Source of the DNA: a virus
Length of the DNA: 21,960 bases
Virus record (IMG/VR): IMGVR_UViG_3300021964_000625
Location: 1-21,960 of that record
Direction: 5' to 3' (one strand)
Both the position numbers and the translations under genes were made by a program. The notes beneath the pieces were generated by a model, which was not told where the DNA came from, made no database searches, and was given only the letters and a program-made list of their open reading frames with translations. Shown here one piece after another: positions 1 to 18,857 of this stretch (the stretch's first letter is position 1; every line of letters begins with the position of its first letter).

Positions 1-1
1 G

Positions 2-745
2 GGAGAGATACCTGTACTGCCAATGACCGCCAAGGACGAGTTGTCGTTCAAGACACCAGACTCCATGATGAGCGGACAATCCACGGTGGATGTGATACAG
101 AGCTGTGTGCCCAACTTCAAGAACGCCTGGAAAATGGTGAACTTCGACACCGATGCTGTGTTGTTGGCGATCAGGATCGCCACATATGGCGAGACCATGG
201 ATGTGAACTACAAGGTACCGGTGACCAATGAGGACATGACACACACGGTCAACCTACCGGCACTGCTAGAAGACCTAGGCAAGACCAACATTGTGGACGA
301 AGCAACCACAAAATCAGGATTCAAGGTCAAACTGGCACCACTGGACTACCAGTCGCTGTCACAGATCCAGACTGCACAGTTCGAACAACAGAAAATTTAT
401 GCCACGGTATCAAACAGTGCGTTGAGTGAGAAGGACAAATCAACCCAGTTCGTTAAAAGTTTCAAAGTATTGAACAACATCAACTTTAGCATGTTGGTGG
501 ATTCCATAACAGAGATCACCACACCTGAGGGAACAACGGTGGTGGACCGGGCACAGATCAAGGACTTCTGTGATAACTGTGACGCCAAGGTCATTAACGA
601 GATACAGGATGAACTGGCCAAGATAAGGTCGCAGGCTCAGATAAAGCCCATCAAATTAAAGTCCACAGAAGAACAGATCAAGAAGGGTGCACCGACTTCG
701 TACGAAGTGCCAGTGACATTTGACAGCTCAAATTTTTTCGCGTAA
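2..745 (+). CDS. 26: Baseplate hub subunit gp26-like (5' partial)
   Basis: Structural protein of the T4-type baseplate hub, acting during virion tail assembly in the host cytoplasm. The frame is open to the left edge: before the first ATG (position 23) it already reads GEIPVLP, continuing into MTAKDELSFKTPDSMMSGQ. The real start therefore lies outside the window and the ATG at 23 is internal. The visible part is about 247 residues; T4 gp26 is roughly 208. The conserved N-terminal block (TAKDEL, TPDSMMSG, VIQSCVPN) and the C-terminal SSNFFA ending match gp26 homologs of marine T4-like phages as I remember them (Pfam T4 baseplate family). The next gene starts 11 bases downstream, which suggests joint transcription. 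The G+C content is high compared with the right half of the window. Confidence 0.75.
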   Translation, partial: GEIPVLPMTAKDELSFKTPDSMMSGQSTVDVIQSCVPNFKNAWKMVNFDTDAVLLAIRIATYGETMDVNYKVPVTNEDMTHTVNLPALLEDLGKTNIVDEATTKSGFKVKLAPLDYQSLSQIQTAQFEQQKIYATVSNSALSEKDKSTQFVKSFKVLNNINFSMLVDSITEITTPEGTTVVDRAQIKDFCDNCDAKVINEIQDELAKIRSQAQIKPIKLKSTEEQIKKGAPTSYEVPVTFDSSNFFA

Positions 746-756
746 CACTGCTGACA

Positions 757-969
757 ATGGGGGACTCTGAAATAGTCTCACACCTCAAGGACTTCGACAA
801 CCAAGCAAAGAACCTCAAACTGGAATTGATGAAGATATGCTGGTTCATGCGTGGTGGCATGAGTTGGAACGAGGCACTGAACCTGTCTCCCGATGAACGC
901 ACAATAGCATCGCAACTGGTAAAAGAGAACATGGACACAGCCAAGAAAACCGGTCAACCTTTCTTCTAG
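757..969 (+). CDS. Small hub-assembly-like protein, possibly gp51-type
   Basis: A 70-residue protein directly behind the gp26-like gene. It is charged and helical, with a central CWFMRGGMSWNEAL segment (from about residue 28) and a conserved-looking C-terminal tail that ends TAKKTGQPFF. I recall similar short proteins with this MRGG...GxPFF pattern following hub genes in marine T4-like phages, where they are annotated as baseplate hub assembly factors (gp51-like). That identity is from memory and not certain. It carries no catalytic motif, signal peptide or membrane segment. A small assembly chaperone for the hub is the likeliest role, judged from position and size. Confidence 0.55.
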   Translation: MGDSEIVSHLKDFDNQAKNLKLELMKICWFMRGGMSWNEALNLSPDERTIASQLVKENMDTAKKTGQPFF

Positions 970-1021
970 AATATAGTATACTATTATGGTATTGAAAAAT
1001 GCAGATAATTAACACTTACAT

Positions 1022-1339
1022 ATGTCCGAAAAAGACCTAGTCAAGGAACTCAAAGCAGAAATCGTAGAAATCACCAAGGACCGTGACGATGCCTTGGAGA
1101 AAATGAAATCAAAGGAGAGCCGGATGAAGCAGGTGTTGATCAAGTTAGAACACGCCACCGAGGACGTGCACCACTGTGGACACAAGATTGGTGAGCAGAA
1201 CAAGGAGATAGCGGAACTCAAGGCCAAACTGGATACCAAGGGCCGACTGCTGGACGAGGCACTGCAAAAGATCAAGGACATACATGACGACTCAACGCAA
1301 AAAACAGACACCCACACAGACGATCCAGACCTGGATTAA
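1022..1339 (+). CDS. Coiled-coil protein of unknown function
   Basis: A 105-residue, highly charged protein that is almost entirely heptad-like helix from residue 1 to about 92 (KELKAEIVEITKDRDDALEK and following), then an acidic, Thr/Asp-rich tail (DTHTDDPDLD). An HHC cluster lies near residue 50. I do not recognise a named family. A scaffold, length-setting or chaperone role would fit the shape, but nothing proves it. The last 56 bases overlap the start of the next gene in another frame, so translation of the two is probably coupled. No good ribosome binding site is visible before the ATG. The 12-base palindrome ATAGTATACTAT lies 37 bases upstream (973-984). Confidence 0.7.
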   Translation: MSEKDLVKELKAEIVEITKDRDDALEKMKSKESRMKQVLIKLEHATEDVHHCGHKIGEQNKEIAELKAKLDTKGRLLDEALQKIKDIHDDSTQKTDTHTDDPDLD

Positions 1340-1811
1340 GGATTTCATCACAAAGCCCAATCCCGTGTTCGGCGACCTACCACCGTGCCCGTTCGCACAG
1401 AAGGCCATGGTGGATGGCAAGGTCAAGTTCCTGGAACTAGATGGCATCGGTGAGTTTGGAACAATATTCACCCACATCTGGGACTTTGACTTCGACAAGA
1501 AGGACGTGTTGGTGATCATAGCGGAGCCAGACCAGTACACCGCAAAAGAGACCGTGGAGATAGCGGACAGGTTGAACCAGGCGTTCATGCCACGTGACGT
1601 TGTGATACTGGAGGATCATCCCAAAATTCAAGAAAAAGTAAAAACGGTCAAACTCAACAACGGCCATTATATATTGTTCCTGGCACAGCGACTGAGCAAA
1701 CTCAACAGATATTCTGAGATGCTGGAAAAGGGACCTTACTACCGAAACTGGTCTAGGTCTTATCTCGAATCAGTGAAAGGTTTCCGAGATCCCGAAGGTT
1801 CTCGATCCTAG
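1284..1811 (+). CDS. Conserved CPFA-motif protein of unknown function
   Basis: A 175-residue soluble protein. After a short Thr/Gln-rich lead it has WIKDFITKPNP (from about residue 18) and the hallmark LPPCPFAQKA (about 32-41), then a hydrophobic strand DVLVIIAEPD and an alternating helix/strand pattern. Proteins with a (L/P)PCPFA block near the N-terminus occur in marine phages and loosely recall bacterial DUF1415, but I cannot name a function. The start is supported by AAGGA five bases before the ATG, although this puts it 56 bases inside the coiled-coil gene. The 3' end overlaps the convergent minus-strand gene by 59 bases. Confidence 0.65.
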   Translation: MTTQRKKQTPTQTIQTWIKDFITKPNPVFGDLPPCPFAQKAMVDGKVKFLELDGIGEFGTIFTHIWDFDFDKKDVLVIIAEPDQYTAKETVEIADRLNQAFMPRDVVILEDHPKIQEKVKTVKLNNGHYILFLAQRLSKLNRYSEMLEKGPYYRNWSRSYLESVKGFRDPEGSRS

Positions 1812-2523
1812 AGTCCCTCCTGCACAGCCTACGGTATTCCTTCTTGTTGGTGCTCCATTCCGTGCCCGTCCACCACTCGAATCCCCGGTAGTTGGCCTTG
1901 TACTCACTGCTGGTTTCATATCCGGATCCCATGTAGAAGTAACTGACGTAGTTGTTGGCGGCCCACTCTATCTCGAGGTCCAACGTGATGTCGGATATGG
2001 GCACGGTGTTGGCGTGTATGACAGATTCCAGTCCGTGTAGGTCCCGGCTGTCATAACTGTCTATGGTGCTGTAGTGGTCGTCCTCCCAACGGTACCGCTT
2101 CTGTTTGGTGAAACCCAGTATGTTGTCCGCAGTTCCGGTGTAGAATATCATGAACTGGTCACGGGCATGGTAGTGTGAGAATGGATCGTAGTCCTGCGTG
2201 AACTCCTTGCGTTTCATGTACTGCGAGTATATGTGTGGCAGTCCCAACAGTTTGACCATCTCGGATGCGTCAATTATTTTCACGCCTATCTCGTCGCCTT
2301 TGTACAGGTGTTGCTTGTATCTTGGTCTGTAAAGGTCCAGGTTTATCCTGGTGCTACGTGATTGATAGAAAACCTCACGTCCCATCACCGGATGATCCAG
2401 CGCCAGCCATCCTCGATCCAAGGCCTCGTGTTCCTCGTCCGTGTCCACTATGGCCATGGGTCGGCATATCACTAGGTCCTGGTGTTCCTGTTTGCCCAAG
2501 GTGTGGTCGAACATCAGTTCCAT
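1753..2523 (-). CDS. Arginyl-tRNA-protein transferase / GNAT-like acyltransferase
   Basis: About 256 residues. The C-terminal third resembles the acyl-transferring half of bacterial aminoacyl-tRNA-protein transferases (Bpt/ATE): a segment ending ITLDLEIEWAANNYVSYFYM is followed by GSGYETSSEYKANYRGFEWW. That parallels the family pattern of helix, YLYLGYWI, then xxYKxxFRPLE and a GxW (here GTEW). The family moves Leu or Arg from tRNA onto protein N-termini. The usual N-terminal Cys cluster is not evident, so a different GNAT substrate is possible. I prefer the ATG at 2523, which has AAGGA nine bases upstream and overlaps the preceding gene by 10 bases; the frame is open further, to an ATG at 2553. 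The assignment rests on eye alignment only. Confidence 0.5.
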   Translation of the reverse strand: MELMFDHTLGKQEHQDLVICRPMAIVDTDEEHEALDRGWLALDHPVMGREVFYQSRSTRINLDLYRPRYKQHLYKGDEIGVKIIDASEMVKLLGLPHIYSQYMKRKEFTQDYDPFSHYHARDQFMIFYTGTADNILGFTKQKRYRWEDDHYSTIDSYDSRDLHGLESVIHANTVPISDITLDLEIEWAANNYVSYFYMGSGYETSSEYKANYRGFEWWTGTEWSTNKKEYRRLCRRDSRIENLRDLGNLSLIRDKT

Positions 2524-3212
2524 TTGATCTGTTCCTTCACTGTTGACAGCCATTCACGATACACGCGGTTATCGAAGTGGCAACCGTCCTCCTGCAGGCC
2601 GTTGTTGCGGTGGCAGTAGGTGTGCGGATCGGAGTCTATCCAACATCTCTTGTTCAGTATCGACGGGAAACCGTCGATCTTGCCGTCGTAGTTCTCCTCT
2701 TCCGGTGTTGCCGGATTGGTTATGTCGTAGAAAAAATTCCAATTGTAGGGTATGCCCGTGGATTCCAAAAAATTTATGGCACCCGCCACACTGTGTACGC
2801 TCATCTCTGCCACGTGTTGGTAGTTGCCGTCCTGCCAGTACAGTGGCATGAACATCTCGTTGGTACGGTCCTCGCCCAGCCAACTGCCCACCTTGCCGCC
2901 CGAACAGAAGAACCTGTGTCGATATGTTTTTATGTTGTTCTTGTATCCGCCCGGTATGTCAAAATCCGGATGCACAATTAGGTCGTATCGCGCCAGTCCG
3001 GTGAACTGCACGTACACATAGTCCGGCCTGTGGTCTGCCAGGTAATCGTGTAGATTTGCGTTGATGAATTGGTTGCCCACTCCCCACCATGAGAGATTTT
3101 TTATAGTAACGTCCTCTCCGAACACAATGTCCTTCCAGGATTGTTCTTTTGTGGGTGGCGCACAATCGTCGACAAGGTTGCTACAACCTATGAATAGTAC
3201 TTGTTTGGGCAT
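2514..3212 (-). CDS. SGNH/GDSL-type hydrolase-like protein
   Basis: A 232-residue protein with an SGNH esterase layout. Block I is LFIGCSN, with the candidate nucleophile Ser11 straight after the first beta strand. GVGNQFIN at about 44-51 resembles the Gly block II. YVYVQFTG at about 65-72 sits at block III, where the usual Asn is replaced. The C-terminal EDGCHFD supplies a D209-x-x-H212 pair of the block V type. The family removes acyl or acetyl groups from sugars, lipids or other small substrates. There is no signal peptide, so it probably acts in the cytoplasm. It lies upstream of the acyltransferase-like gene and overlaps it slightly, so the two form a pair. G+C is high, like the left block. 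Confidence 0.55.
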   Translation of the reverse strand: MPKQVLFIGCSNLVDDCAPPTKEQSWKDIVFGEDVTIKNLSWWGVGNQFINANLHDYLADHRPDYVYVQFTGLARYDLIVHPDFDIPGGYKNNIKTYRHRFFCSGGKVGSWLGEDRTNEMFMPLYWQDGNYQHVAEMSVHSVAGAINFLESTGIPYNWNFFYDITNPATPEEENYDGKIDGFPSILNKRCWIDSDPHTYCHRNNGLQEDGCHFDNRVYREWLSTVKEQIKWN

Positions 3213-3251
3213 AATATACTACTTAATGCATTGTCAGAGACGGCTTACGCC

Positions 3252-3285
3252 ATCTGAAACTTCGCTCGCGCTCGTTTCTTTTTTT
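3252..3285 (+). terminator. Weak hairpin followed by seven T
   Basis: GAAAC (3256-3260) can pair with GTTTC (3274-3278) around a 13-base CG-rich loop, and TTTTTTT follows at 3279-3285. This has the form of a rho-independent terminator for plus-strand transcription, but the stem is only 5 bp. It could instead be the first element of the structured region that follows. Confidence 0.3.
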
Positions 3286-3541
3286 AACTTACGCAGTTGT
3301 GAAACTAAATGACGCATTTATGCGTCGCCTGTGGTAGATGAGCAGTCACAATTCGGCTATTTCTAGCCGAACCGACTTGAACCCTGTGGTGAGTTCGCAG
3401 TCACTATGCATCGCTACCGTGGTTGGGCGGTTGTGCTGTACCCATTTGCTCATTCATTACAACGCGAGCCTACCAAACCCTTGCATAATAGTTTTTGGTA
3501 AACCTGGGGTTTAACTTTTTCTAAGAGCCCCATCATTTTTT
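3286..3541 (+). ncRNA. Candidate structured RNA or leader upstream of accessory operon
   Basis: No convincing ORF covers this stretch, yet stems are dense. GACGCA/TGCGTC closes a 4-base loop (3311-3326). TTCGGCTA/TAGCCGAA closes a TTTC loop (3352-3371). GACTTGAAC pairs with GTTCG-c-AGTC (3374-3402). These last two sit inside a long outer stem of GGTAG-ATG (3333-3340) with CAT-cg-CTACC (3409-3418), giving a three-way junction. A further stem joins 3425-3434 to 3459-3470, and TACCAAA/TTTGGTA joins 3471-3500. Several pairs are G-T on the plus strand (3330-3332 with 3419-3421; 3378 with 3397). These would be A-C mismatches in a minus-strand RNA, so plus-strand transcription is favoured. It matches no RNA family I know (not tRNA, tmRNA, RNase P or SRP). 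No clear promoter was found. Confidence 0.4.
3505..3541 (+). terminator. Terminator-like hairpin with possible antiterminator
   Basis: TGGGGTTT (3505-3512) pairs with GAGCCCCA (3525-3532), an 8-bp stem with two G-T pairs, followed after three bases by TTTTTT (3536-3541). AAACCC at 3475-3480 is complementary to GGGTTT at 3507-3512, so the 5' arm of the terminator could be captured by an alternative upstream pairing, as in attenuators. It either ends a free RNA or controls read-through into the accessory operon. Confidence 0.45.
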
Positions 3542-3704
3542 GCTGTGTGCATCTAAGGATTCACCTGTCGCTTGTTAGCCGCATTTCCTTGCTCACTGGT
3601 TGCGATGCTATGTTTGCCTAAATATTTTTTTGATTTTGCCTGTCGGATAGATACTGTTGCCTATCACTACTATATAACATTCAAATAAAATTTGGTGAAC
3701 AGTA
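3542..3704. other. Intergenic stretch before the GIY-YIG gene
   Basis: I see no gene here. It holds a long-range inverted pair GCATC (3549-3553) / GATGC (3604-3608) and then becomes AT-rich. A loose sigma70-like arrangement, TTGATT (3630-3635) and TACTGT (3652-3657) with 16 bases between, could drive the operon but is weak. GGTGA at 3693-3697 is the likely ribosome binding site of the next gene. Confidence 0.3.
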
Positions 3705-4130
3705 TTGAGTTTAAATACCATCATGCAGTGGATGTTTGAAGGAAAACCGGTCGATGAATTACCAAACGATTGTGTTGGATTTGTGTACGAGATAACAAAT
3801 ACAACCAATGGTAAGAAATATATTGGTAAAAAATTAGCAAAATTTAAAAGATCCAGACCTCCGTTAAAAGGCAGAAAAAATAAAAGAAGATTCAAGGTAG
3901 ATTCCGATTGGAGAGATTATTACGGTTCCAGTGATGCATTGCTGGAAGACATACAAAAAATAGGAAACGACAAATTCACCAGGGAAATATTATTTTATTG
4001 CAAGAACAAAGGTGAACTATCTTACGTGGAAGCCAGAGAACAGTTTGCTCGAAAGGTGTTGGAGTCTGATGATTATTACAACGGACACATCAGAGTGAGA
4101 GTACACGGAAGCATGATAAGAAAAAAATAG
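3705..4130 (+). CDS. GIY-YIG endonuclease-like protein
   Basis: A 141-residue protein of the GIY-YIG nuclease fold. The paired motif is visible as GFVY (residues 25-28) and KYIG (38-41), followed by a Lys/Arg-rich stretch, WRDYYGSS (69-76) and SYVEAREQ (106-113), which supplies the candidate metal-binding Glu109. Similar free-standing proteins are frequent in T4-like phages, where some are homing nucleases that cut related phage genomes and some have host-DNA or repair roles. The start used is TTG at 3705, with GGTGA seven bases upstream; an ATG at 3723 is the alternative and removes six residues. It is first in the accessory operon, and tctA begins two bases after its stop, so it may have carried that cargo in. 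Confidence 0.75.
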   Translation: MSLNTIMQWMFEGKPVDELPNDCVGFVYEITNTTNGKKYIGKKLAKFKRSRPPLKGRKNKRRFKVDSDWRDYYGSSDALLEDIQKIGNDKFTREILFYCKNKGELSYVEAREQFARKVLESDDYYNGHIRVRVHGSMIRKK

Positions 4131-4132
4131 AA

Positions 4133-5569
4133 ATGGAACTGATATTTTTATTTGCCGGAATATTTTTTGGATTGATAATTGGCATAATACCGGCCGCGGG
4201 AGCCACCACAGGGTTGATAGCACTGTTTGGTGTGATGCCTTATTTTGTATCCGATCCCTACCTGGGCGTGATATTCTGTGTGGCAGTTGTGGCATCCTCG
4301 ACAACAGGTGATTCTTTCAGCGGTGTGCTGTTGGGCATACCCGGTGCCAATTCGGCGGCCGCAACCATGGTGGATGGATTCCCCATGGCAAGAAACGGCG
4401 AAGCATCACGAGCCCTGAGTGCCGCAATCACATCCAGCACCCTAAACGGATTGATATTTGGTTCTCTCACATTTTTATTTTTGCCTTACTATACCAACAT
4501 TGTGATGTACATGGGAATACCGGAATTATGGGCGTTGGTGGTTTTGGCTTTTGTCACAGTGGGTTTTTTATCAACAAAGAATTACATCAGAAGCATACTA
4601 GCCATAATATTAGGTGTCGTGATAGGCCTGGTGGGAGTGGATGCCAACAATGTGCCACGTTTCACAATGGGCTGGAGATACCTCGAGGACGGAGTACAGA
4701 TCTTGCCGTTCGTGGCAGGACTTTTTGCCATACCAGAGTTATGGGAAGGCTGGAGTAAAAGAAAACAGACAGTAGATGCCGCGGCATTGAAAGGCAGTTG
4801 GTCAGGAATTTTACAAGGGATAAAAGACACTTTACATTGCTGGAAAGATAGCATACGCGGAGGAGCCATAGGTTCGTTCATAGGCTTACTGCCAGGACTG
4901 GGTGGAGCAATGGCAGATTGGTTGAGTTATGGTGCCACGGTTGCTTCAAATCCAAGCGAAAAATTTGGAAATGGAAATGTGAGAGGAGTGATAGGAGCCG
5001 AGGGAGCCAACAATGCACAGAAGGCCTCGTCCTTTATTCCCACTGTGTTGTTTGGCATACCGGGAGCACCTTTTGCCGCCATCCTGATGGGATTATTTCT
5101 GTACATAGGAATAGATCTAGGATCACCAGACACGTTCTATGATACTCAACTATTTAATAGCATGACATTTGGCTTCCTGGCAGGAACGATCATCACTGCT
5201 TTTATCTGTTATGGATTGGCTTACTTCGCAGGACATATAACAAAATTACCATACATCTATTATTTTCCTTTCATAATAGCAATCATTGTCTGGGCAACCA
5301 TGCAGTATACCGGCGGTTGGGAAGATCTTGCCACTTTGGTAATTTTTTCTGCCTTGGGAATAGGCTGTAAATACATGAAAATAAGCAGACCGGCGTTGTT
5401 GATTGGTTATCTTTTAAGTGATAGAATTTATAATTTATCCTATCAATTGATATCGTTGCATTCGGTTGATGAAATTTTTCAAAGGCCGATCTTTATTTTT
5501 ATAATAATCTGTGTTATAATGATAACATGGGCGGGAATAACAAGAAAAAACAGGATAGACTATGCTTAA
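4133..5569 (+). CDS. tctA: Tripartite tricarboxylate transporter, large membrane subunit TctA
   Basis: Integral inner-membrane permease of a TctABC-type secondary transporter, which imports carboxylates delivered by a periplasmic binding protein. The 478 residues are mostly hydrophobic helices and carry both internal-repeat signatures. The first is GLIIGIIPAAGATTG (13-27) with LLGIPGANSA and VDGFPMARNGEASRAL. The second, in the middle of the protein, is GLLPGLGGAMADWLSYGA, GAEGANNAQKASSFIP and LFGIPGAPFAA. Families members are typically near 500 residues, so this is close to complete, with a short N-terminus. It overlaps tctC by 8 bases. No TctB (small four-helix subunit) is found next to it, so the phage protein may use host TctB or work without it. 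Base composition shifts from G+C-rich at the 5' half to AT-rich at the 3' end. Confidence 0.92.
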   Translation: MELIFLFAGIFFGLIIGIIPAAGATTGLIALFGVMPYFVSDPYLGVIFCVAVVASSTTGDSFSGVLLGIPGANSAAATMVDGFPMARNGEASRALSAAITSSTLNGLIFGSLTFLFLPYYTNIVMYMGIPELWALVVLAFVTVGFLSTKNYIRSILAIILGVVIGLVGVDANNVPRFTMGWRYLEDGVQILPFVAGLFAIPELWEGWSKRKQTVDAAALKGSWSGILQGIKDTLHCWKDSIRGGAIGSFIGLLPGLGGAMADWLSYGATVASNPSEKFGNGNVRGVIGAEGANNAQKASSFIPTVLFGIPGAPFAAILMGLFLYIGIDLGSPDTFYDTQLFNSMTFGFLAGTIITAFICYGLAYFAGHITKLPYIYYFPFIIAIIVWATMQYTGGWEDLATLVIFSALGIGCKYMKISRPALLIGYLLSDRIYNLSYQLISLHSVDEIFQRPIFIFIIICVIMITWAGITRKNRIDYA

Positions 5570-6638
5570 AAAAAGAATGATAAAAAGTGCCATACTAGTT
5601 GTCATACTTGTGGTGGGAGTGATGTTTGGAAAAATTGCAAAAGCAGATTACAATTTAATTGTGCCACAGAAACCGTCGGGCGGAACTTCTGTGTGGGCAC
5701 AGATAGTTGTGGCCGAATGGGAGAAACACTTGGGTGAAAAGATCAATCTCATTTACAAACCAGGTGCAAGAGATCAATTGGGTCCAAACGAATTTCAAAA
5801 CACATTAAGATTTGATGATAAAACAATATTGGTATCTCATGGAGGTAACGGTATATCATATCTAATGGAACCGGTCGATTACAATTATTTTGATTGGGAA
5901 TCGATTGGACAAATGAACTTGAACATTATTGTGGGTGCTCGTGATAATGCAGACTTATCAAATGGTCCTATCAAATTTCCTTCGGGTTCAGGAATGACAC
6001 CGGAAATAATGGCCATTGTGATGTTATTGGCAGGACCAAACGGTGACGTAATACAAACGTGGAATGAAAAAATTGTATGGGTAAAAGGCATGAGCGGATC
6101 TGAGAGGAGACTTGCGTTTCGTAGAGGAGATCTAAACGCAACGAGAGAAAACCCAGCCGCATATAAAAAACACGTGACACCTGTGATAGAGTCTGGAGAT
6201 GCTATCACTTGGTTCCATCATGGGTTATTAAATGTTGGTACCGGCAAACACGACAAAGATCCTAATTTTTCTGAACCAACATTCGAAGAGTTGTTTCAGT
6301 CAATGCACGGTGTTGAACCAAGCGGTGACTTTTATGATGCATACAAACTTGTGAAAAGTTGGAGAGATGCCTTACAAAAAGCATTTTGGGTAAACAGAGG
6401 TAATCCCAACAAAGATAAATTGGTTGATGCACTGAATAGGATGATCAACGATCCAGAATCTATAAAGGCAATCGAAAAGAATGTTGGAAAATACGAATGG
6501 AGAACAGGCACAGACGGTGATGCCGCTGTGAGAACACTGAAATCATTTATAACACCAACAGCATTGAAAACATTGACCAATTTTGGAAAAAATCAGTTGG
6601 GATATAACACAGTCTATAAGGAACAACTAACCAAATAA
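5562..6638 (+). CDS. tctC: Tripartite tricarboxylate transporter substrate-binding protein TctC (Bug family)
   Basis: Periplasmic ligand-binding partner of TctA. The 358-residue product starts with a clear Sec signal peptide: KKRMIK n-region, hydrophobic core at about 10-23, and an A-K-A signal peptidase I site after residue 28. The mature part opens with YNLIVPQKPSGGTSVWAQIV, the position of the Bug-family pocket motif (usually VPxxPGGxxD). It continues with the expected two-lobe pattern, including INLIYKPGARDQLG, the counterpart of the family's NRPGAGG loop. The loops differ from textbook TctC, so the ligand cannot be read off. An AGGA seven bases before the ATG lies inside tctA, which implies coupled translation. 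An exported solute receptor is uncommon cargo for a phage. Confidence 0.85.
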   Translation: MLKKRMIKSAILVVILVVGVMFGKIAKADYNLIVPQKPSGGTSVWAQIVVAEWEKHLGEKINLIYKPGARDQLGPNEFQNTLRFDDKTILVSHGGNGISYLMEPVDYNYFDWESIGQMNLNIIVGARDNADLSNGPIKFPSGSGMTPEIMAIVMLLAGPNGDVIQTWNEKIVWVKGMSGSERRLAFRRGDLNATRENPAAYKKHVTPVIESGDAITWFHHGLLNVGTGKHDKDPNFSEPTFEELFQSMHGVEPSGDFYDAYKLVKSWRDALQKAFWVNRGNPNKDKLVDALNRMINDPESIKAIEKNVGKYEWRTGTDGDAAVRTLKSFITPTALKTLTNFGKNQLGYNTVYKEQLTK

Positions 6639-6640
6639 CA

Positions 6641-7237
6641 ATGTACATATTGTTCACAGGGGCGCCGGGATCAAAGTGGAGCAGTGTGGTCAAGAACATC
6701 TACTGGAGTGATGACATAGATCACACGGACTATTCTGATCAGAGAACCTACTGGCACGATGCCGACACCCCCGGACACAGACAACTCATGCACACAGGAG
6801 CATACTGGGATCCAGGCATGGAGTTTGAAAATTCAAAAGAAAATTGGGATAAGCCATTCTCAGGCACAGGCAAGAGGATCATAAAATCACACACGTTTGC
6901 ACACCAACTTAATGAATTGAAGGTGTTGGGATATCCTATAGTGATTGTTCGAAGGAACAACCTAGAGTGTTATGACTGGTGGAAATTGTGTGGAGAATTC
7001 AATATCACATATCCCAACTATCAATACTTTGAGAACTTAGACCGGATGTGGACGCACATTCAGGATCAAAACACAGATATTGCACAGTTCATACAGCAAA
7101 ATCTAGACAGAATAATTTGTCCTGTGGACAACTTTGATCTGTGCCGGGTTCTAGGAATAAAAGAACCAGGCCCCAGGGACATCATACATACACATAACTA
7201 CGCGAACAAGGATATCAAGGTATATGTCTACAAGTAA
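6641..7237 (+). CDS. P-loop / sulfotransferase-like protein
   Basis: A 198-residue protein that begins MYILFTGAPGSKWSSVVKNI: a first strand followed by a phosphate-binding loop (GAPGSKWS, 7-14), in the position of the PAPS loop of sulfotransferases. IIKSHTFAHQL (80-90) and the strand IVIVRRNN (100-107), which would supply a 3'-phosphate-binding Arg, also fit that fold. The fold could equally bind another nucleotide. Proteins of this type are common in marine T4-like phages with no defined substrate. The gene starts two bases after tctC and overlaps the next gene by 14 bases. It is markedly richer in G+C than its downstream neighbours (34 of 60 bases in 6721-6780). Confidence 0.55.
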   Translation: MYILFTGAPGSKWSSVVKNIYWSDDIDHTDYSDQRTYWHDADTPGHRQLMHTGAYWDPGMEFENSKENWDKPFSGTGKRIIKSHTFAHQLNELKVLGYPIVIVRRNNLECYDWWKLCGEFNITYPNYQYFENLDRMWTHIQDQNTDIAQFIQQNLDRIICPVDNFDLCRVLGIKEPGPRDIIHTHNYANKDIKVYVYK

Positions 7238-7874
7238 TTGGAAAGATGCAAAAGCAAGAAGCAACTACCACTTCAACAAATGGCACCGGGATACCGACTG
7301 CGTACAACATCTAGGTAAATTCACTGGCGGTTGGCAAACAGAAATACAATCGGTGATCGATGATGCCAAACCATTGAATTGGGCCAATCGTAGGGAAGGC
7401 ACAGGTAGACCAGACGGTGATGTACAAGCAGAAGAAAATGATTTAATAAAAGCAGGTGCGGATCCCAAAATGACCATATACAGAGGTTTAAAAGATTTTT
7501 CAAAATGCCCCACACTCCAAAGAATGACCGATTTCTTTTGTTTGGAACCGGTAAAATCTAAGTTACACATACAATTTACTGGTGAGGTATTGAATATGCA
7601 CATAGACAAATTATATGATTTAGATGCTGATCCAAATAATGTTATACGTATAATGGTGATGTTGCAGGATTGGGAACCCGGTCAGTTCCTGATGTATGGT
7701 AACCAGCAATTTGACAGATGGAGATCCGGTGATATACACACGTTCGATTGGCAAAACTTACCACACGCCACAGCAAACGCCAGCAACAAGCCAAGACCCA
7801 TGTTGGTCATCACGGGTGTAAAAAGTGACAAAACAAATAATCTTTTACAGAAGGAAATTAAAAAAAGGATATGA
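7224..7874 (+). CDS. 2OG-Fe(II) oxygenase-like protein (Asp/Asn hydroxylase type)
   Basis: A 216-residue protein whose second half has the iron-binding layout of cupin-fold 2-oxoglutarate oxygenases. H126-x-D128 lies in EVLNMHIDKLYD, a strand-rich segment IRIMVMLQDWEPGQF follows, then WRSGDIHTFDWQNLPHATAN with the distal His181 and, ten residues on, Arg191 in PRPMLVITG, where the 2OG carboxylate would bind. The W-x-x-G-D...F-D...H pattern recalls the aspartyl/asparaginyl beta-hydroxylase branch. Substrate unknown: it could be a protein side chain or a small molecule. Its ATG is preceded by AAGG and lies inside the upstream gene; its stop overlaps the methyltransferase start by 4 bases. Confidence 0.65.
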   Translation: MSTSNWKDAKARSNYHFNKWHRDTDCVQHLGKFTGGWQTEIQSVIDDAKPLNWANRREGTGRPDGDVQAEENDLIKAGADPKMTIYRGLKDFSKCPTLQRMTDFFCLEPVKSKLHIQFTGEVLNMHIDKLYDLDADPNNVIRIMVMLQDWEPGQFLMYGNQQFDRWRSGDIHTFDWQNLPHATANASNKPRPMLVITGVKSDKTNNLLQKEIKKRI

Positions 7875-8389
7875 ACGAAATGGAAACAAGTTATTTTCGT
7901 GATAATTGGAAACCCAATTATTCAAAATTTAAATATTCAGGATGGGCGTTATTGGATAAAATTAATAAAACTGATCAAATATTAGATATAGGTTGTGGTT
8001 ATAATTTATTCAAAGAAAAATTAGGTGATAGATTATATGGTATAGATCCTGCCAACGACAATGCAGATGAGGTTATAAGTTGGGAAGATTATGAGCCACA
8101 TAAAAAGTTTAACGTGTATTTTGCTCTCGGAAGTTTAAATTTTGGAACAGAACAAGAAGTGGAATTTCAAATAGCCAAGTTATCAAGAATAACCAATACC
8201 GGTGATAGAATATACTGGAGACAGAATCCAGGCACGGGAGATCATCCATGGAAGGGAGTTGAATCTGTGAGATTTTATCCGTGGTCAATTGATAAAAATG
8301 TGGAATGGTGCGACAAGTATAACTTTACACTGAAAGAAATTTTGGAAGACAGTGGTAATAGATTATACGCCGAGTGGATCAAAAAATAA
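7871..8389 (+). CDS. Class I SAM-dependent methyltransferase-like protein
   Basis: A 172-residue protein with a Rossmann-type SAM site. Motif I is ILDIGCGYN (37-45) after a helical lead, the acidic end of strand two is LYGIDPAN (55-62), and FNVYFALGSLNFG is the strand and loop in the position of motif IV. The C-terminal part, with WSIDKNVEWCDKYNFTLKEI, looks like the usual last helix and hairpin. No substrate-specific domain is attached, so the target (sugar, small molecule or protein) is open. It is the last gene of the accessory operon, overlapping the oxygenase by ATGA, and is very AT-rich (14 G+C in 7921-7980). An ATG three codons in is an alternative start. Confidence 0.75.
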   Translation: MNEMETSYFRDNWKPNYSKFKYSGWALLDKINKTDQILDIGCGYNLFKEKLGDRLYGIDPANDNADEVISWEDYEPHKKFNVYFALGSLNFGTEQEVEFQIAKLSRITNTGDRIYWRQNPGTGDHPWKGVESVRFYPWSIDKNVEWCDKYNFTLKEILEDSGNRLYAEWIKK

Positions 8390-8411
8390 TCAAAAATACA
8401 GAAATAAAAAA

Positions 8412-8450
8412 AGCCCATGTATTTTAAAAGTACATGGGCTCTTTGTTGTT
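8412..8450. terminator. Strong bidirectional terminator
   Basis: AGCCCATGTA (8412-8421) pairs perfectly with TACATGGGCT (8431-8440) around a 9-base loop. On the minus strand the stem is followed by an unbroken run of T (complement of the A-run 8405-8412), which is ideal for ending the histone-like gene. On the plus strand a weaker CTTTGTTGTT follows and ends the accessory operon. It separates two convergent units. Confidence 0.88.
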
Positions 8451-8473
8451 ATAACAAAAAAGAAGAAGTAATA

Positions 8474-8680
8474 TTATTCAGCGGCAGGAGCCGATGCGGC
8501 TTTTTCTGCGTTCTTAGTTTCTTGAATTTCTTTTCTTCTTGCTTTAATCAATTTGCCAAGTTCAGCAAGTGCTTTTCTGGCTCTTGTTGCTGATGCCTTA
8601 ACACCTTTTTCCGTGAATTTTGAATTCTCTTCGGAATAAGTTTGAATTGCTGTCATTATTGACTCGTGTGTTGCTGACAT
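8474..8680 (-). CDS. Small basic histone-like protein
   Basis: A 68-residue Lys/Ala-rich protein (SATHESIMTAIQTYSEENSK, then VKASATRARKALAELGKLIK). It has an N-terminal helix, a strongly basic middle (KASATRARK, KLIKARRKE) and an Ala-rich tail. I recall closely similar short proteins in T4-like cyanophages annotated as histone-like or DNA-binding; direct evidence of DNA binding is lacking. It has an excellent ribosome binding site (AAGGAG), its own sigma70-type promoter at 8723-8752 and the terminator at 8412-8440, so it is a single-gene unit. That arrangement suggests high or early expression, as for a nucleoid or genome-organising protein. Confidence 0.65.
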   Translation of the reverse strand: MSATHESIMTAIQTYSEENSKFTEKGVKASATRARKALAELGKLIKARRKEIQETKNAEKAASAPAAE

Positions 8681-8722
8681 TTGTTCTCCTTTGTATTGTG
8701 TTAATTAATTAACTATATTCGT

Positions 8723-8752
8723 ATTGTACGACGCTATTTGTGGTTTAGTCAA
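8723..8752 (-). promoter_or_regulatory. Sigma70-type promoter for the histone-like gene
   Basis: On the minus strand TTGACT (8752-8747) is followed after 18 bases by TACAAT (8728-8723), each one mismatch from the TTGACA/TATAAT consensus. The start codon is at 8680, leaving a leader of about 35 bases that contains GTTAATTAATTA and AAGGAG. It begins directly after the gp46 stop codon. Confidence 0.7.
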
Positions 8753-8753
8753 C

Positions 8754-10523
8754 CTAAATAATAACTTCAACATCGTTGGCATAATTGGTAAAACCGTTTT
8801 CTTTTACCACTTTTAACACAGAGTTTACTCTGCTTACCAACTCGTCCTTGTGTGATATCAAGAATATATTTTTTTGTTGTTTACGAGCCATGTCCTTCAA
8901 AACTGCCATGGCAGATTCCACACCCGATGTGTCCATTCCTGCATCAATAAGTTCGTCAATGAACAGTAAGTTGATCTGTTGATAAAGACTTTCCCACACA
9001 TCTCTGAATGCCCAACTCAACGAAAGTATCAATCTGTTACGTTCGCCTCGACTTAAATTATCAAAATCCAGTTCTCTGCCCAGTTCTTCGATTTGCACAG
9101 TTAAATCTGATTGGAAAGTCACTGTGTGAGGTAATTTAACTTGTGACAAGTACCATGCCAGACGTTGATTTAGATATGTTAAGTTTTGTTCGATAATTCG
9201 TGTTCGAATGAACGAATCTTTTGCAGTAAGTAGTTTGTATAAAAAATCTTGATGTTTTAACAAATCTTCTAGTTCGTTGACTTTAGTATAATCAACTTTT
9301 TGTAATGCGGATTTAGTCAGTTCTTCGATTTGTTCTTGATATGGATTTTCTTTGTTTTCTGTTTGTTCTAGTTGTCTTTTTAGGTCTGCCAGTGATCCTT
9401 TATGATTATAGGCGTCATCGATGGTATCATAATAAGTGTCGGGTAAAATACCAATATCTCCAATTGCTGAAATGTTTTTATTAATTGCATCTAAATCACT
9501 AGTTAATTTTGTTTCGTCTTTTTGTAACTCGTCAAGATCATTTTCCAGTTTTGATAACAACTGTTGATGTTTTTCATCATGTAAAGTCTGTTCACAAGTG
9601 GGACACTTGGCTTCTTTGGCATATTCAATATCTTTCTGTTTCAACCCAATTTGTTTGACTGTTTTAGTCAAACTGTCTTCGTGGTATGCTTTCTCTTTTT
9701 CCAAACTTCTTAATGCTTTTGAATTTTCTTCGTGTTTTTGTATTTGTTTGTGTAAATCTAGTTCTTTTTCAATATCTACCTTTTCTAGATCGCTAATGGC
9801 AAATTTAAATTTTTTAATATCGTCTTTTTGTTGAGTTTCCCACGCAGAGTTTCTTAATTTTAAATTTTTAATTGATTCGTTAATTTTTTCATTTGAACTG
9901 ACAATCGAATCTAATTTAAATTTTTCTGTTGTTGCGTCATCTTTAGTTGCCTTCATTTGTGCTTTAAGCAAGTCTGCTTTCTCTGAAAGTATTGTTATAC
10001 CCAAAAGTTGTTCAATAATTTCTCTTTGTTCTGCTTGTTTTGTTGCCAAGAAGGGTTGTGAATATGTGTTTAATGCCATGATATTTTTAAACATAGCATG
10101 AGTCATGCCGATCAATTTGTTTATTTCATGTTGCGTTTCTCTGTTTTCACCTTGTGCTTCGTTTGACTCTTGTTCTATGTCGTTGGCGTAGAACCTAAGC
10201 ACCTGAGGTTTTCTCCCCCTCTCAATTTTATATTTGATACCATTCTTTTCAAATTCAACACCGACCACCATGTCTTTGTTGTTGGTCTTATTAACTAGAT
10301 TATCTTTTCTTATATTTGTCAGTGCTTCACCAAAAAATGCGTAACTTATGGCATTGATTATAGTTGTTTTACCTGTTCCGTTTCTTGCACCAGCATCGTC
10401 ACCTCCAAGATCCATGTTTTCACCAATCACTAAAACAAGATTTTTACCTTGGAAGTTAATGGCCTGTGCCTGATTACCAACAGAAAGAAAATTCTTCACA
10501 GTTAATGTTTTAATAGTCAGCAT
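8754..10523 (-). CDS. 46: Recombination endonuclease subunit gp46 (Rad50/SbcC-like)
   Basis: ATPase subunit of the T4-type gp46/gp47 complex, which resects DNA ends for recombination-dependent replication and repair. The 589 residues show the full SMC/Rad50 order: Walker A at about 45-54 (GARNGTGKTT, preceded by an extended Gly/Asp loop), two long coiled-coil arms on either side of the zinc-hook Cys pair C307-P-T-C310, ABC signature LSRGERNRL (490-498), Walker B INLLFIDELID (517-527, with D523/E524) and the switch His in LISHKDEL (H558). T4 gp46 is similar in length. The ATG follows the stop of the small upstream ORF with no gap, and AGGA lies about 9 bases before it. Confidence 0.95.
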   Translation of the reverse strand: MLTIKTLTVKNFLSVGNQAQAINFQGKNLVLVIGENMDLGGDDAGARNGTGKTTIINAISYAFFGEALTNIRKDNLVNKTNNKDMVVGVEFEKNGIKYKIERGRKPQVLRFYANDIEQESNEAQGENRETQHEINKLIGMTHAMFKNIMALNTYSQPFLATKQAEQREIIEQLLGITILSEKADLLKAQMKATKDDATTEKFKLDSIVSSNEKINESIKNLKLRNSAWETQQKDDIKKFKFAISDLEKVDIEKELDLHKQIQKHEENSKALRSLEKEKAYHEDSLTKTVKQIGLKQKDIEYAKEAKCPTCEQTLHDEKHQQLLSKLENDLDELQKDETKLTSDLDAINKNISAIGDIGILPDTYYDTIDDAYNHKGSLADLKRQLEQTENKENPYQEQIEELTKSALQKVDYTKVNELEDLLKHQDFLYKLLTAKDSFIRTRIIEQNLTYLNQRLAWYLSQVKLPHTVTFQSDLTVQIEELGRELDFDNLSRGERNRLILSLSWAFRDVWESLYQQINLLFIDELIDAGMDTSGVESAMAVLKDMARKQQKNIFLISHKDELVSRVNSVLKVVKENGFTNYANDVEVII

Positions 10524-10685
10524 CTATTTTTTTTCCTGTTGTTTCCTCCAACGCCAATAACCAGCAATCCATTCCTTTTGCGTGGGTTTACGATACAAGA
10601 AATCGTTGATTATATTAATTTCTTTGGGTTCGGATTTTAAAATCTGCATAAGTTTTTTCTTTGTTATTTTTTTAGTTGTTGACAT
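10524..10685 (-). CDS. Small basic ORF between genes 47 and 46 (53 residues)
   Basis: This short frame reads MSTTKKITKKKLMQILKSEP at its start and ends AGYWRWRKQQEKK. It fills the gap between gp47 and gp46 almost exactly: its ATG lies 14 bases inside the end of gp47 and its TAG touches the gp46 ATG. The product is very basic with a Trp/Tyr-rich WIAGYWRWRK segment, which would suit nucleic-acid or protein contact. T4 also has small ORFs (46.1, 46.2) between these genes, but I cannot show homology. A good ribosome binding site is not visible, so translation would depend on coupling to gp47. Confidence 0.6.
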   Translation of the reverse strand: MSTTKKITKKKLMQILKSEPKEINIINDFLYRKPTQKEWIAGYWRWRKQQEKK

Positions 10686-11694
10686 CTAGATTGTTGTATA
10701 TGGCCATTAGTATTTGTTTATCGTATGTTTTTGAATCTACGCTCTCCAGTTGTTTGATCACGATTTGATCAACCGAATCAAACTTTTCAATGTGTACTGT
10801 TGGTTGATCAACAGTGTCTAGTTGTTCTGGTATCAATTGTAATTCTCTCAATTTATATTTCTCTAAAAATGTTTCTCTAATGAAATTTGCTTCTTCGTAA
10901 GAAATTTTTATATCCAAACCAACACGCACATACATTTTTTCCTTCAATAATGCATCTGCGTTCTCTAATAGTTGTGAAATTTTATAATGACGATAAACAG
11001 GCATATTTGGCCAGTTTATGTATTGTGGTTTTCCGCCTTGTTCCAATATCATCATTCCTCTTTCGTCATCGCCGGCATCCGCGTAGTTGTGAGGAAAAGC
11101 ATTACCGATGTAATGTATATTGTTTCTAACCTGTCTTTTATGAAAATGACCTGAAAAAACAAATTGCTGATGAACAAAATGTTCTGCTTTAATTCCTCCA
11201 ACGTCGGGCATATCGACCATGGCATTCATTTTAAAATAAGGAATCTCAAAATGACCAAATATATATTTTTGTTTCATATTTGGAATTTTTAGATACTCTT
11301 CCGGTTCTAACCATGGAATGATTGCTACATCGTCGTTTTCGATCCAACTGTTTACTAGATGTACGTTGGGAATATTTCTTGCGAACTCCATGGAGTTGAT
11401 TTCTCTTTTTTCCCTATAGAATAAATCATGGTTGCCCATGATCACATACACTTTTTCAAATGCCTTACCTAATCGCTCGATGTTAGAAACAGTATAATTC
11501 ATGGTACTAACATTGGTAGAACTTCTATGATGATGCCAATCACCCAAGAAGATACAAGTTTCACAGTTGTTTTCTTTTGCTGTTTTTATAAACCAATGGA
11601 TGAATTCTTCACAGTCGTCGTTGTGTATTCTGGAATTTCCTTTAAGGCCAAAGTGTATGTCCGTAAAACAGGCCACTTTTTTAAATGTTGTCAT
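10672..11694 (-). CDS. 47: Recombination endonuclease subunit gp47 (Mre11/SbcD-like)
   Basis: Nuclease subunit paired with gp46. The 340-residue protein carries the calcineurin-type metallophosphatase motifs in order: D12-x-H14 in CFTDIHFG, GDWHHH (51-56), GNHD (87-90), GHFE (147-150) and GHFHKR (182-187). These bind the two metal ions of Mre11-type 3'-5' exonucleases. The remaining C-terminal part, about 150 residues, would be the capping and Rad50-binding region. T4 gp47 is about the same length. The gene starts three bases after the gp55 stop and is followed by the 53-residue ORF and gp46, giving a 55-47-x-46 transcription unit. Confidence 0.95.
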   Translation of the reverse strand: MTTFKKVACFTDIHFGLKGNSRIHNDDCEEFIHWFIKTAKENNCETCIFLGDWHHHRSSTNVSTMNYTVSNIERLGKAFEKVYVIMGNHDLFYREKREINSMEFARNIPNVHLVNSWIENDDVAIIPWLEPEEYLKIPNMKQKYIFGHFEIPYFKMNAMVDMPDVGGIKAEHFVHQQFVFSGHFHKRQVRNNIHYIGNAFPHNYADAGDDERGMMILEQGGKPQYINWPNMPVYRHYKISQLLENADALLKEKMYVRVGLDIKISYEEANFIRETFLEKYKLRELQLIPEQLDTVDQPTVHIEKFDSVDQIVIKQLESVDSKTYDKQILMAIYNNLDVNN

Positions 11695-11697
11695 GTG

Positions 11698-12705
11698 TTA
11701 CTTTCTTACTTTTTCAAAATCTTTCGCAGTCAGTGTACCCGACTTTTTCATTTTCTTGTTTAGTTCAGCAATTGCTTTTTTAGTATACACTGTTACCGGA
11801 GAAGGTTCAACTGTTCTTTCTATCTTATCTCCGTTGTTGGTCATGTAATAACTTTTCTTTATTTTCTTTTTCTTTAAAGAATTTTCTCTGTCTTCTCTCT
11901 CGGATTTTGCAATTTCTTCGTTTTTTGATTGTCTAGTATAACTAGGCATCAAGTTATTCAGTTCCATTATGTCATCTCGAATATTTTGATTTTTTTTCTC
12001 AATGTTCAATATACGAGTGAATGAATTTGTTATGGCCGCGGTGTAATAAGCAAAAGGATTGTCTGATTTGGATTCGTCGAATTGTAATCCTATCTGTGAT
12101 AGTTGCATTAATGCCTGTGACTGCATTTCATCATTGTAAGTGTAACCTCTCCAGTTGCTTCTTGTACCATATCTTTCACACAGTTTCATGTACATCAAAG
12201 CCAACTTGTTGGTCATTTTTCCATGATCTATTGAAAACTGTCCGTTAATCATTCCGCCAGTCCAGTGACTTTTGCCAACACATTTTGGTTTGCCCTTTTC
12301 GTCGATCCTATAGTGTTGAAAAGGTGGAAAATTAATTTTCGTATGAGTATCTGCCTCAGTTTTTGGTCTCTTTTTTCTTTGCAAGTCTTCGGGTATGTGT
12401 TCAAAGGTCATCACACGAAAAACAATATCTGTCTTGGAAATTTTTCTAGGAGAAACTTCAAAGTCGCTCATCTTTATTCTCTTGTTTCCACCAGACTTGG
12501 CCTGTTCCCAGGCTTCCTGTGTCAATCTTTTTGCTTTGGCCTTGCGGGCCCTTGCGATGTTGGCACCATTGATTTTTTTGATGTCGGGCACGATTATATC
12601 GTAGTTGCTATCATCGGGAGACACATACGAACAGTAACTATTTTTGCTCTTGTGTATCTCGCTCAACAGATCTTTGTTGTTCAGGTAGTTTACTCTTTTA
12701 ACCAC
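11698..12705 (-). CDS. 55: Late-transcription sigma factor gp55-like, enlarged
   Basis: T4-type sigma factor that directs host RNA polymerase to late promoters. The N-terminus VNYLNNKDLLSEIHKSK (residues 5-21) matches the start of T4 gp55 (NYVNNKELLQ). Residues 166-238 match its core: KLCERYGTRSNWRGYTYNDE, LQFDESKSDNPFAYYTAAIT and RILNIEKK, against SKRFNFSGYT, NFDETKYKNPHAYITQ and RIKKERK in T4. The total of 335 residues compares with about 185 in T4. A Lys/Arg-rich block of roughly 135 residues separates the two matching parts, and the C-terminal tail after 240 is lengthened and basic. The start is GTG at 12705 with TAGGAGA six bases upstream. Confidence 0.8.
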   Translation of the reverse strand: MVKRVNYLNNKDLLSEIHKSKNSYCSYVSPDDSNYDIIVPDIKKINGANIARARKAKAKRLTQEAWEQAKSGGNKRIKMSDFEVSPRKISKTDIVFRVMTFEHIPEDLQRKKRPKTEADTHTKINFPPFQHYRIDEKGKPKCVGKSHWTGGMINGQFSIDHGKMTNKLALMYMKLCERYGTRSNWRGYTYNDEMQSQALMQLSQIGLQFDESKSDNPFAYYTAAITNSFTRILNIEKKNQNIRDDIMELNNLMPSYTRQSKNEEIAKSEREDRENSLKKKKIKKSYYMTNNGDKIERTVEPSPVTVYTKKAIAELNKKMKKSGTLTAKDFEKVRK

Positions 12706-12719
12706 TAAATTCTCCTAAC

Positions 12720-12731
12720 TAATTAATTAAC
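12720..12731 (-). promoter_or_regulatory. Leader motif shared by two minus-strand genes
   Basis: Minus strand GTTAATTAATTA, 14 bases upstream of the gp55 GTG. The identical 12 bases lie at 8702-8713, in the leader of the histone-like gene. No clear -35/-10 pair was found here, so the motif itself may be part of the promoter or a shared leader. Confidence 0.35.
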
Positions 12732-12786
12732 GTAGATTGATGTAAAATCTTGCCGTATGTGAATAATATGCGCCTATTAAAATGCC

Positions 12787-12794
12787 TATAAATA
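12787..12794 (+). promoter_or_regulatory. T4-type late promoter for the baseplate operon
   Basis: TATAAATA is an exact match to the T4 late -10 consensus recognised by gp55-containing polymerase. It lies 44 bases before the gp48 ATG, in the 133-base divergent gap between gp55 and gp48. The gene for its probable reader, gp55, is transcribed away from the same gap. Confidence 0.75.
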
Positions 12795-12838
12795 TTGTTT
12801 AGTATACAAGAAATTTAAAGGAAGAGCAACCAAATAAA

Positions 12839-13741: not shown

Positions 13742-13742
13742 T

Positions 13743-14042
13743 ATGGCAAAATATAGTACAACATCACCTTATTTCGCAACACCTGAAAATAATATAAGTT
13801 TAGATTTTCTTGTTGCGAGAGCAATCACAGCCGAACAAGATGATATAGAATATACGATTGATAGAATATATGCATATCGTCCAGACTTGTTGGCATATGA
13901 CTTATACGGTACTCCTCGACTATGGTGGGTGTTTGCTCAAAGAAATCCAGATTACATCGAAGACCCGATTTATGATTTTGCTCCAGGAGTTACGATTCGA
14001 TTGCCAAAGTTAAGCAATCTTAAAACTGACCTAGGGTTATAA
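13743..14042 (+). CDS. 53: Baseplate wedge subunit gp53-like
   Basis: A 99-residue protein. The block LAYDLYGTPRLWWVFAQRNP followed by IEDPIYDFAPGVTIRLPKLS is characteristic of the gp53 baseplate wedge family, in which a YGT/S-x-x-LWW-x-IA-x-xN motif precedes a LysM-like strand with an I-P. T4 gp53 is 196 residues; this is the short form seen in many marine phages. It joins wedges to the hub. One base separates it from the gene on each side, so it is expressed with gp48. Confidence 0.75.
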   Translation: MAKYSTTSPYFATPENNISLDFLVARAITAEQDDIEYTIDRIYAYRPDLLAYDLYGTPRLWWVFAQRNPDYIEDPIYDFAPGVTIRLPKLSNLKTDLGL

Positions 14043-14043
14043 C

Positions 14044-16263: not shown

Positions 16264-16267
16264 AATT

Positions 16268-18400: not shown

Positions 18401-18402
18401 AT

Positions 18403-18813: not shown

Positions 18814-18833
18814 TATACGTACATAATTAAAAC

Positions 18834-18841
18834 AATAAATA
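18834..18841 (+). promoter_or_regulatory. Possible late promoter before gp6
   Basis: AATAAATA differs from the T4 late consensus TATAAATA by one base and sits in the 44-base gap before gp6. It is only 16 bases from the ATG, so the leader would be very short, and such AT-rich words arise easily by chance here. Confidence 0.25.
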
Positions 18842-18857
18842 CTCGTAATATAAATGT

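Follow-up and report, generated by a model that had tools for sequence, protein, structure and literature searches.

What is an aminoacyltransferase-like gene doing beside a hydrolase-like gene in the genome of a T4-like phage? The question arises from IMG/VR virus record IMGVR_UViG_3300021964_000625, of which positions 1 to 21,960 (the whole stretch analysed, hereafter the window) were examined; the source is a distant T4-like phage. An initial annotation made from the sequence alone had described two overlapping minus-strand genes, one with SGNH hydrolase blocks and the other with a pattern of ATE/Bpt transferases. It proposed N-degron tagging or an acylation/deacylation cycle as their role and left the pairing unexplained. 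Both genes were found where it had placed them, at 2514-3212 and 1753-2553, with a probable overlap of about 10 nucleotides (nt). As judged from profile comparisons and a predicted fold, the second gene encodes a member of the ATE/Bpt superfamily that forms a new branch and is not a proven ATE or Bpt. A structured RNA and a convergent DUF6875-like gene, both absent from the initial annotation, are far more constant partners of this ATE-like gene than the SGNH-like gene is (Table 1).

The minus-strand open reading frame (ORF) at 1753-2553 encodes 266 amino acids (aa) with the motif YFYMGSGYE..YKANYRGFE. A scan with this single sequence gave 65 loci, and since most of these relatives align from residue 11 onward, a start at 2523 (M11) is more probable, which reduces the overlap with the SGNH-like ORF from 40 nt to the figure given above. 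The 3' end overlaps the plus-strand gene at 1284-1811 by 59 nt. ATE-like relatives are present in at least 183 viral contigs by profile scan, and the best 80 of the 183 were kept. Substitutions in close pairs concentrate at third codon positions (20/10/57 for positions 1/2/3 in the ATE-like gene of the window versus that of locus L009), and both minus-strand ORFs are more than chance ORFs.

Several comparisons place the ATE-like family with arginyltransferases. The Pfam family ATE_C (PF04377) was matched by 8 of 25 members with a best E-value (E) of 6.9e-9, and six of ten members scanned singly exceeded its cut-off. The member with the best ATE_C match (L065) also matches the NCBIfam arginyltransferase model (E 4.6e-8), far under the cut-off of that model. 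The five best matches of the family profile in the PDB were all arginyltransferases (E 0.014-0.037), and hhalign against 17 bacterial ATE/Bpt sequences, which were the 17 of 24 loci passing a motif filter, gave a probability of 95.5 and E 1.5e-8 over 150 columns. The AlphaFold model of the protein has a predicted local distance difference test score (pLDDT) of 83.4 and a predicted template modelling score (pTM) of 0.81. Foldseek returned human ATE1 as its best solved match (E 4.4e-6), with a VIA Z of 13.8 over 208 residues; this alignment spans residues 1-240 of the model and therefore covers the N-terminal domain too. The next-best structural rows are mostly GNAT enzymes dependent on aminoacyl-transfer RNA (aminoacyl-tRNA), namely MprF/A-PGS, FemX and the streptothricin aminoacyl-tRNA-dependent peptide synthases Sba18/Sbb17. 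These share a GNAT domain match at Z of about 10 to 12.5, but mostly only the GNAT part aligns and their scores lie under that of ATE1. In the viral structure library, the best match of the model is an unnamed phage protein of 143 aa (E 2.3e-7).

At the residue level, R59, Y102, A188, Y197, G199, Y208, K209, E216 and W223 are found in at least 80% of both the phage and the bacterial ATE sets. The phage proteins resemble ATE1 and bacterial Ate/Bpt (PF04377 with PF04376) in two-domain architecture, GNAT fold, the YK..E..W signature and the R59, Y102 and Y197 positions. They differ by a 2-residue deletion before YK and by an extra WWTGTEW..C.RD tail. Near-invariant within the phage family are G201-Y202-E203, W217-W218-T-G220..W223 and C234, followed by R236-D237.

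The window ATE-like protein has no match among 50,697 cultured phage records. For a divergent member only two Acinetobacter phage records match (E 4e-3), annotated as arginyl-tRNA-protein transferase. A branch of such divergent proteins from other viral contigs (L062-L071), which lack the RNA and the partner gene, has the best ATE_C scores. Among 84,980 species genomes, three contigs of metagenome-assembled genomes (MAGs) carry ATE-like relatives and are probably phage sequence inside the bins. The MAGs that hold these contigs (L085, L086 and L087) carry the labels Pelagibacter, Betaproteobacteria and Neomarinimicrobiota, and so do not agree on a host.

Next, we examined what accompanies the gene. 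Loci were collected by separate scans for the ATE-like gene, the RNA, the SGNH-like genes and the DUF6875-like gene, and each count below belongs to the scan named with it. In the ATE scans, 70 unique loci have a 3' flank of 900 nt or more; 64 of them contain a DUF6875-like gene, and the six that do not all belong to the divergent branch L062-L071. The RNA scan gave 50 loci with a 3' flank of 2,500 nt or longer, of which 33 have both the ATE-like and the DUF6875-like gene, 16 have neither and one has the ATE-like gene only. The DUF6875-like scan, limited to the 80 closest among 483 relatives, yielded 71 unique loci: the gene is convergent with an ATE-like gene in 66, has it elsewhere in two and has none within the flank in three. 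The two genes are a unit that is gained and lost together. Distant relatives of the partner occur in the cultured phages HMO-2011, CRP-810 and Sf-FP1 beside no recognised ATE-like gene, and in CRP-810 the relative overlaps a 2OG-Fe(II) oxygenase gene. DUF6875 (PF21780) is weakly matched by 12 of 14 partner proteins (best E 2.3e-4), and the window copy scores 18.9 bits, under the Pfam gathering cut-off of 24.5. The partner proteins have a CPF motif and layout in common with a DUF6875 protein at locus L333, which stands beside an ORF that reads, by eye, like a non-ribosomal peptide synthetase adenylation domain. Comparison with YqcI/YcgG heme-thiolate N-hydroxylases around the heme-ligand Cys aligned 27 columns at a probability of 3.6, the YqcI profile being built from three sequences; the heme idea for the partner (compare PMC12866846) stays at motif level.

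Most ATE-like loci also have in common a long noncoding sequence upstream of the gene. A blastn search with the window stretch gave 132 loci, and a 19-mer of the RNA was found in at least 120 viral stretches and in none of the cultured phages and plasmids scanned. RNAalifold predicted 65 pairs from 41 aligned sequences, 27 of them with compensatory changes, and a loop pseudoknot emerged from mutual information across 108 unique sequences. In the final structure 98.5% of cells pair (99.7% in the pseudoknot helix), percentages that are inflated since the structure was partly derived from the alignment on which it was tested. Better controls are the shuffles and the asymmetry between G-U and A-C cells. 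Changes on both sides were seen in 36 of 69 pairs, and in five of the eight pseudoknot pairs; none of 500 shuffles reached 36/69, and slid partners gave at most 11. G-U cells number 302 versus 13 for A-C, which places the RNA on the minus strand in the window, where it folds better than 100 of 100 shuffles (z -3.27). Cmscan of the window and its relatives gave no Rfam 15 match at gathering score, and looser limits gave only rows at chance level. We concluded that the RNA is a previously unlisted, strongly covarying family.

Large structured RNAs of bacteria and phages include GOLLD, ROOL and OLE, of which GOLLD is phage-borne. Set beside these, the window RNA is likewise large, pseudoknotted and highly conserved, and phage-borne like GOLLD, but it is about 380 nt long and lacks an Rfam 15 match. 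A peptide encoded in the RNA (ATGATGAGG...) was rejected, as frame lengths differ and codon positions vary about equally (3.0/3.9/3.7). Identity as a tRNA or transfer-messenger RNA was rejected as well, none being present in the window; the two tRNAs detected in 16 loci are in L068 and L071 only and lie apart from any such RNA. The gene that first follows the RNA has, in most marine loci, the heptamer TTAAGTA or a close variant a few bases ahead of its start codon. With a single copy in the window, a late-promoter reading is unproven; the heptamer might also be a ribosome site.

The RNA and the ATE-like gene are linked from both sides. Among 64 unique RNA-scan loci with a 3' flank of 1 kb or more, the ATE-like gene follows directly on the same strand in 35, lies elsewhere in nine and is absent from 20. 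Conversely, of 69 ATE-scan loci whose 5' flank reaches 600 nt or more, 61 have the RNA, the other eight being L153, L155 and six loci from the divergent branch. Most of the 20 loci without the ATE-like gene keep, whole or in part, the order gp46 / GIY-YIG / RNA / p1022 / p757 / gp26 hub. The RNA thus belongs to the phage backbone site, and the ATE-like and DUF6875-like unit comes and goes beside it.

The SGNH-like gene is a less regular companion. SGNH hydrolases are defined by a catalytic Ser in block I and an Asp-x-x-His in block V. The window ORF (232 aa) has GCSN near its N-terminus and DGCH near its C-terminus, and Ser11, Asp209 and His212 are invariant in five aligned window-type sequences, so the loss of Ser and His conservation that the initial annotation had allowed for did not arise. 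At the place of the block III GxND the ORF reads, by eye and with no structure to place it, QFTGLAR. It has no Pfam or PDB sequence match, searches of PHROGs and cultured phages gave it no clear family, and its AlphaFold model, made from five sequences, reaches a pLDDT of only 46. The SGNH assignment therefore stands at motif level. Window-type relatives were found on 11 further contigs of a different T4-like lineage, after a GroES-like gene in the single locus examined (L006), and the ATE-like gene is absent from all 11, several of which are short.

A second SGNH-like family, unrelated to the window type by BLAST and hhalign, carries GDSF(S/N) close to its N-terminus and GHH..EGQQ.F close to its C-terminus (L021, L051, L144 and L152, the last identical to L290). 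The scan for this GDSFS type gave six contigs, all with the RNA immediately upstream (6/6); those that continue all have the ATE-like gene immediately downstream (4/4), and the remaining two end within the SGNH-like gene itself. The family was not found in 10 longer contigs searched. A scan with a 7-residue SGNH pattern also pulled in unrelated proteins (L168, L169 and L171). Like SGNH/GDSL hydrolases, both families have a Ser at the block I position and a C-terminal His, but they lack a Pfam or PDB sequence match, and no canonical block III GxND was seen in them. Six loci (the window, L016/L218, L021, L051, L144 and L152) have a gene between the RNA and the ATE-like gene, and in five of these an SGNH-like gene directly precedes the ATE-like gene. 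In L051, aminotransferase-like (Pfam E 2.1e-4) and PhyH-like oxygenase (2.9e-4) genes lie upstream of it. In L016 such genes match more weakly (0.03 and 0.0083) and no SGNH-like gene is present. The pairing singled out by the initial annotation thus recurs through a sequence-unrelated family in the same slot.

We propose, at roughly even odds, that the locus holds an aminoacyl-tRNA-dependent transferase of the ATE/Bpt superfamily, in a unit with the convergent DUF6875-like gene and with an SGNH-type enzyme as optional accessory. By analogy with the superfamily, the GNAT domain would bind host aminoacyl-tRNA and hand its amino acid on to an acceptor amine. The acceptor might be a small molecule, a peptide, or a phage or host protein amine other than the standard N-degron; we favor a non-N-degron acceptor because the metal site is lost and the optional genes are of small-molecule type. 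The SGNH enzyme would trim or activate the acceptor or product, and the RNA would be an independent phage RNA near the unit. Some phages carry an SGNH-type gene, and rarely aminotransferase-like and PhyH-like genes, inserted between RNA and transferase.

The following observations weigh against this proposal. None of the four ATE metal-ligand positions is Cys-conserved in the phage proteins (0/4): residues 1-70 hold 0-2 Cys in the 79 full-length phage sequences, and four Cys lie within the first 100 residues in 17/17 bacterial ATE. PMC10115844 gives the yeast ATE1 zinc site as CX2CXnCC, and its correspondence to the lost phage cysteines is by alignment. With the CXXC/CC site gone, the phage branch is an ATE-superfamily member failing a defining feature of ATE/Bpt proper, so the initial ATE/Bpt call holds for the ATE-type GNAT (by ATE_C, PDB profiles, hhalign and Foldseek) and not for a Bpt-like metal site. 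The bacterial motif D-G-[LV]-S..F-[FY]-[DE]-P...S-L-G (DGLS..FDP..RSLG) is not kept in the marine group. The tRNA-binding features of Bpt, which the initial annotation had suggested checking, gave a mixed picture: no equivalent of helix alpha-f is modelled, residues 62-72 being coil, and the net charge of residues 61-80 ranges from -3 to +6 in the family with a median of +2. Searched alone, the window copy yields no convincing E-value against any Pfam or PHROG family. The CoA-dependent GNAT acetyltransferase VipF is interleaved with the tRNA-dependent enzymes at Z 12.5. The RNA without the ATE-like gene in 16/50 loci indicates that it need not serve the enzyme. Finally, the transferase activity is a predicted one.

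A somewhat unlikely alternative is that a SegE-type homing endonuclease and an independent RNA merely mark a variable site that takes up cassettes, among them the ATE-like and DUF6875-like pair and the SGNH-like genes, the adjacency being functionally near-meaningless. In 75 of 96 RNA loci a divergent GIY-YIG gene is found no more than 700 nt upstream of the RNA, and it stands about 75 nt away in most loci (80/97). The RNA occurs without the ATE-like gene in the 16 loci noted; in L205, L266 and L293 the order is inverted, with the ATE-like gene and its partner upstream of the RNA; and the 11 contigs with a window-type SGNH gene have no ATE-like gene. The joint gain and loss of the ATE-like and DUF6875-like genes argues otherwise, as do the GDSFS-type family, seen solely in this slot (6/6), and the order RNA-[SGNH]-ATE on one strand in most loci. 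The GIY-YIG product might home to the RNA gene or work together with the RNA. The best match of the GIY-YIG gene, PHROG 447, is labelled NAD synthetase, which looks like a mislabel.

It is unlikely that the enzyme is a genuine N-degron transferase, attaching Leu or Arg to N-terminal Asp or Glu of host or phage proteins for ClpS/ClpAP degradation during infection. The full-length ATE1 fold match, N-terminal domain included, and the conserved YK..E..W would fit it. In one bacterial class ATE_C proteins occur in 84 of 142 genomes, which makes the N-degron pathway a common one in that class. Against it stand the lost Zn/Fe-S cysteine cluster, the DGLS/FDP/RSLG motif missing from marine members, and the three MAGs, which have no ATE_C match of their own. 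The tagging role raised by the initial annotation is possible but unsupported. An N-degron/Bpt search of the open-access literature returned only a Leptospira paper.

Equally improbable is a cis-acting role of the RNA, as a riboswitch or thermosensor in the leader of the gene behind it. In most loci it does end shortly ahead of the start codon of the first gene, in the window about 25 nt ahead of the SGNH-like start codon. However, the ATE-like gene is divergent and 80 nt upstream of the RNA in L205 and L266, it is absent from the same 16 of 50 RNA loci, and the 3' hairpin with its T-rich tail looks terminator-like by eye.

Quite unlikely, in our estimate, is a dedicated phage pathway in which the metal-free ATE-type transferase and the DUF6875-like protein would build an aminoacylated compound or tag, SGNH-type enzymes would edit it, and the RNA would be a regulator or the transferase's RNA partner; there the DUF6875-like protein might possibly act in redox chemistry via its invariant Cys35. 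CoA-dependent GNATs bind the pyrophosphate with a P-loop motif R/Q-x-x-G-x-G/A. An acyl-CoA-dependent acyltransferase on an ATE-like scaffold with the SGNH protein as matching deacylase is very unlikely, since this P-loop glycine is absent in 69 of 79 sequences (G at position 177 in just 10) and ATE_C is by far the better family match, even though the GNAT fold, VipF among the top structural rows and weak Acetyltransf_6 matches in 2 of 25 members (best E 0.0091) speak for it.

Table 1. Features of the ATE-like locus in the window
Feature	Position	Strand	Remarks
DUF6875-like partner gene	1284..1811	+	175 aa; C35-P-[FY]-A and E-D-H-P motifs; convergent with ATE-like gene
ATE/Bpt-superfamily aminoacyltransferase-like gene	1753..2523	-	256 aa from M11; longer ORF (266 aa) reaches 2553
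SGNH-hydrolase-like gene	2514..3212	-	GCSN Ser11, D209-x-x-H212; motif level only; between RNA and ATE-like gene
TTAAGTA	3220..3226	-	sole copy of the 7-mer in the window; just before SGNH-like start codon
Structured noncoding RNA	3238..3619	-	about 380 nt; conserved core and two 3' hairpins (3238-3278)
RNA pseudoknot	3403..3489	-	loop 3489-3482 pairs with 3410-3403, 8 pairs
SegE-type GIY-YIG endonuclease gene	3705..4130	+	divergent, flanks RNA; start may be 3723

Elsewhere the window has a gp26-type hub gene at 23-745, gp46/gp47 and a late sigma factor at 8754-12705, and baseplate genes beyond 13 kb. Among 2,994 matching phage records, the cultured gp46 proteins closest to that of the window are from Pseudomonas phage PA5oct and its relatives (48.7%). 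On the plus strand, a TctA gene (4133-5569; PF01970, E 1.7e-92) stands in tandem with a gene for a TctC-like secreted solute-binding protein, recognised by eye (5562-6638), here in a phage. Among the putative auxiliary genes that PMC6359870 reports for SUP05 viral contigs is tctA. Three plus-strand ORFs without clear family follow at 6641-8386, of which 7224-7871 is 2OG-Fe(II) oxygenase-like by eye and 7871-8386 has a weak methyltransferase likeness. G+C content is 47-52% in the first 3 kb (1-3000) versus 32-42% from 5 kb on (5000-21000).

ATE/Bpt enzymes are known from cells as regulators of protein fate. Here we describe a large phage-borne branch without the metal site that is coupled to a fixed partner gene; in the open-access literature, which is weak evidence, no paper combining arginyltransferase with bacteriophage, marine phage or auxiliary metabolic genes was found. 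If the ATE-like enzyme is active, infecting phages would draw charged tRNA into a reaction outside the ribosome. The recurrent SGNH pairing makes the substrate question concrete: an ester or amide would be expected in the acceptor or product. The cassette, carried by ocean viruses of bacteria, hints at an as yet unknown amino-acid-attaching pathway.

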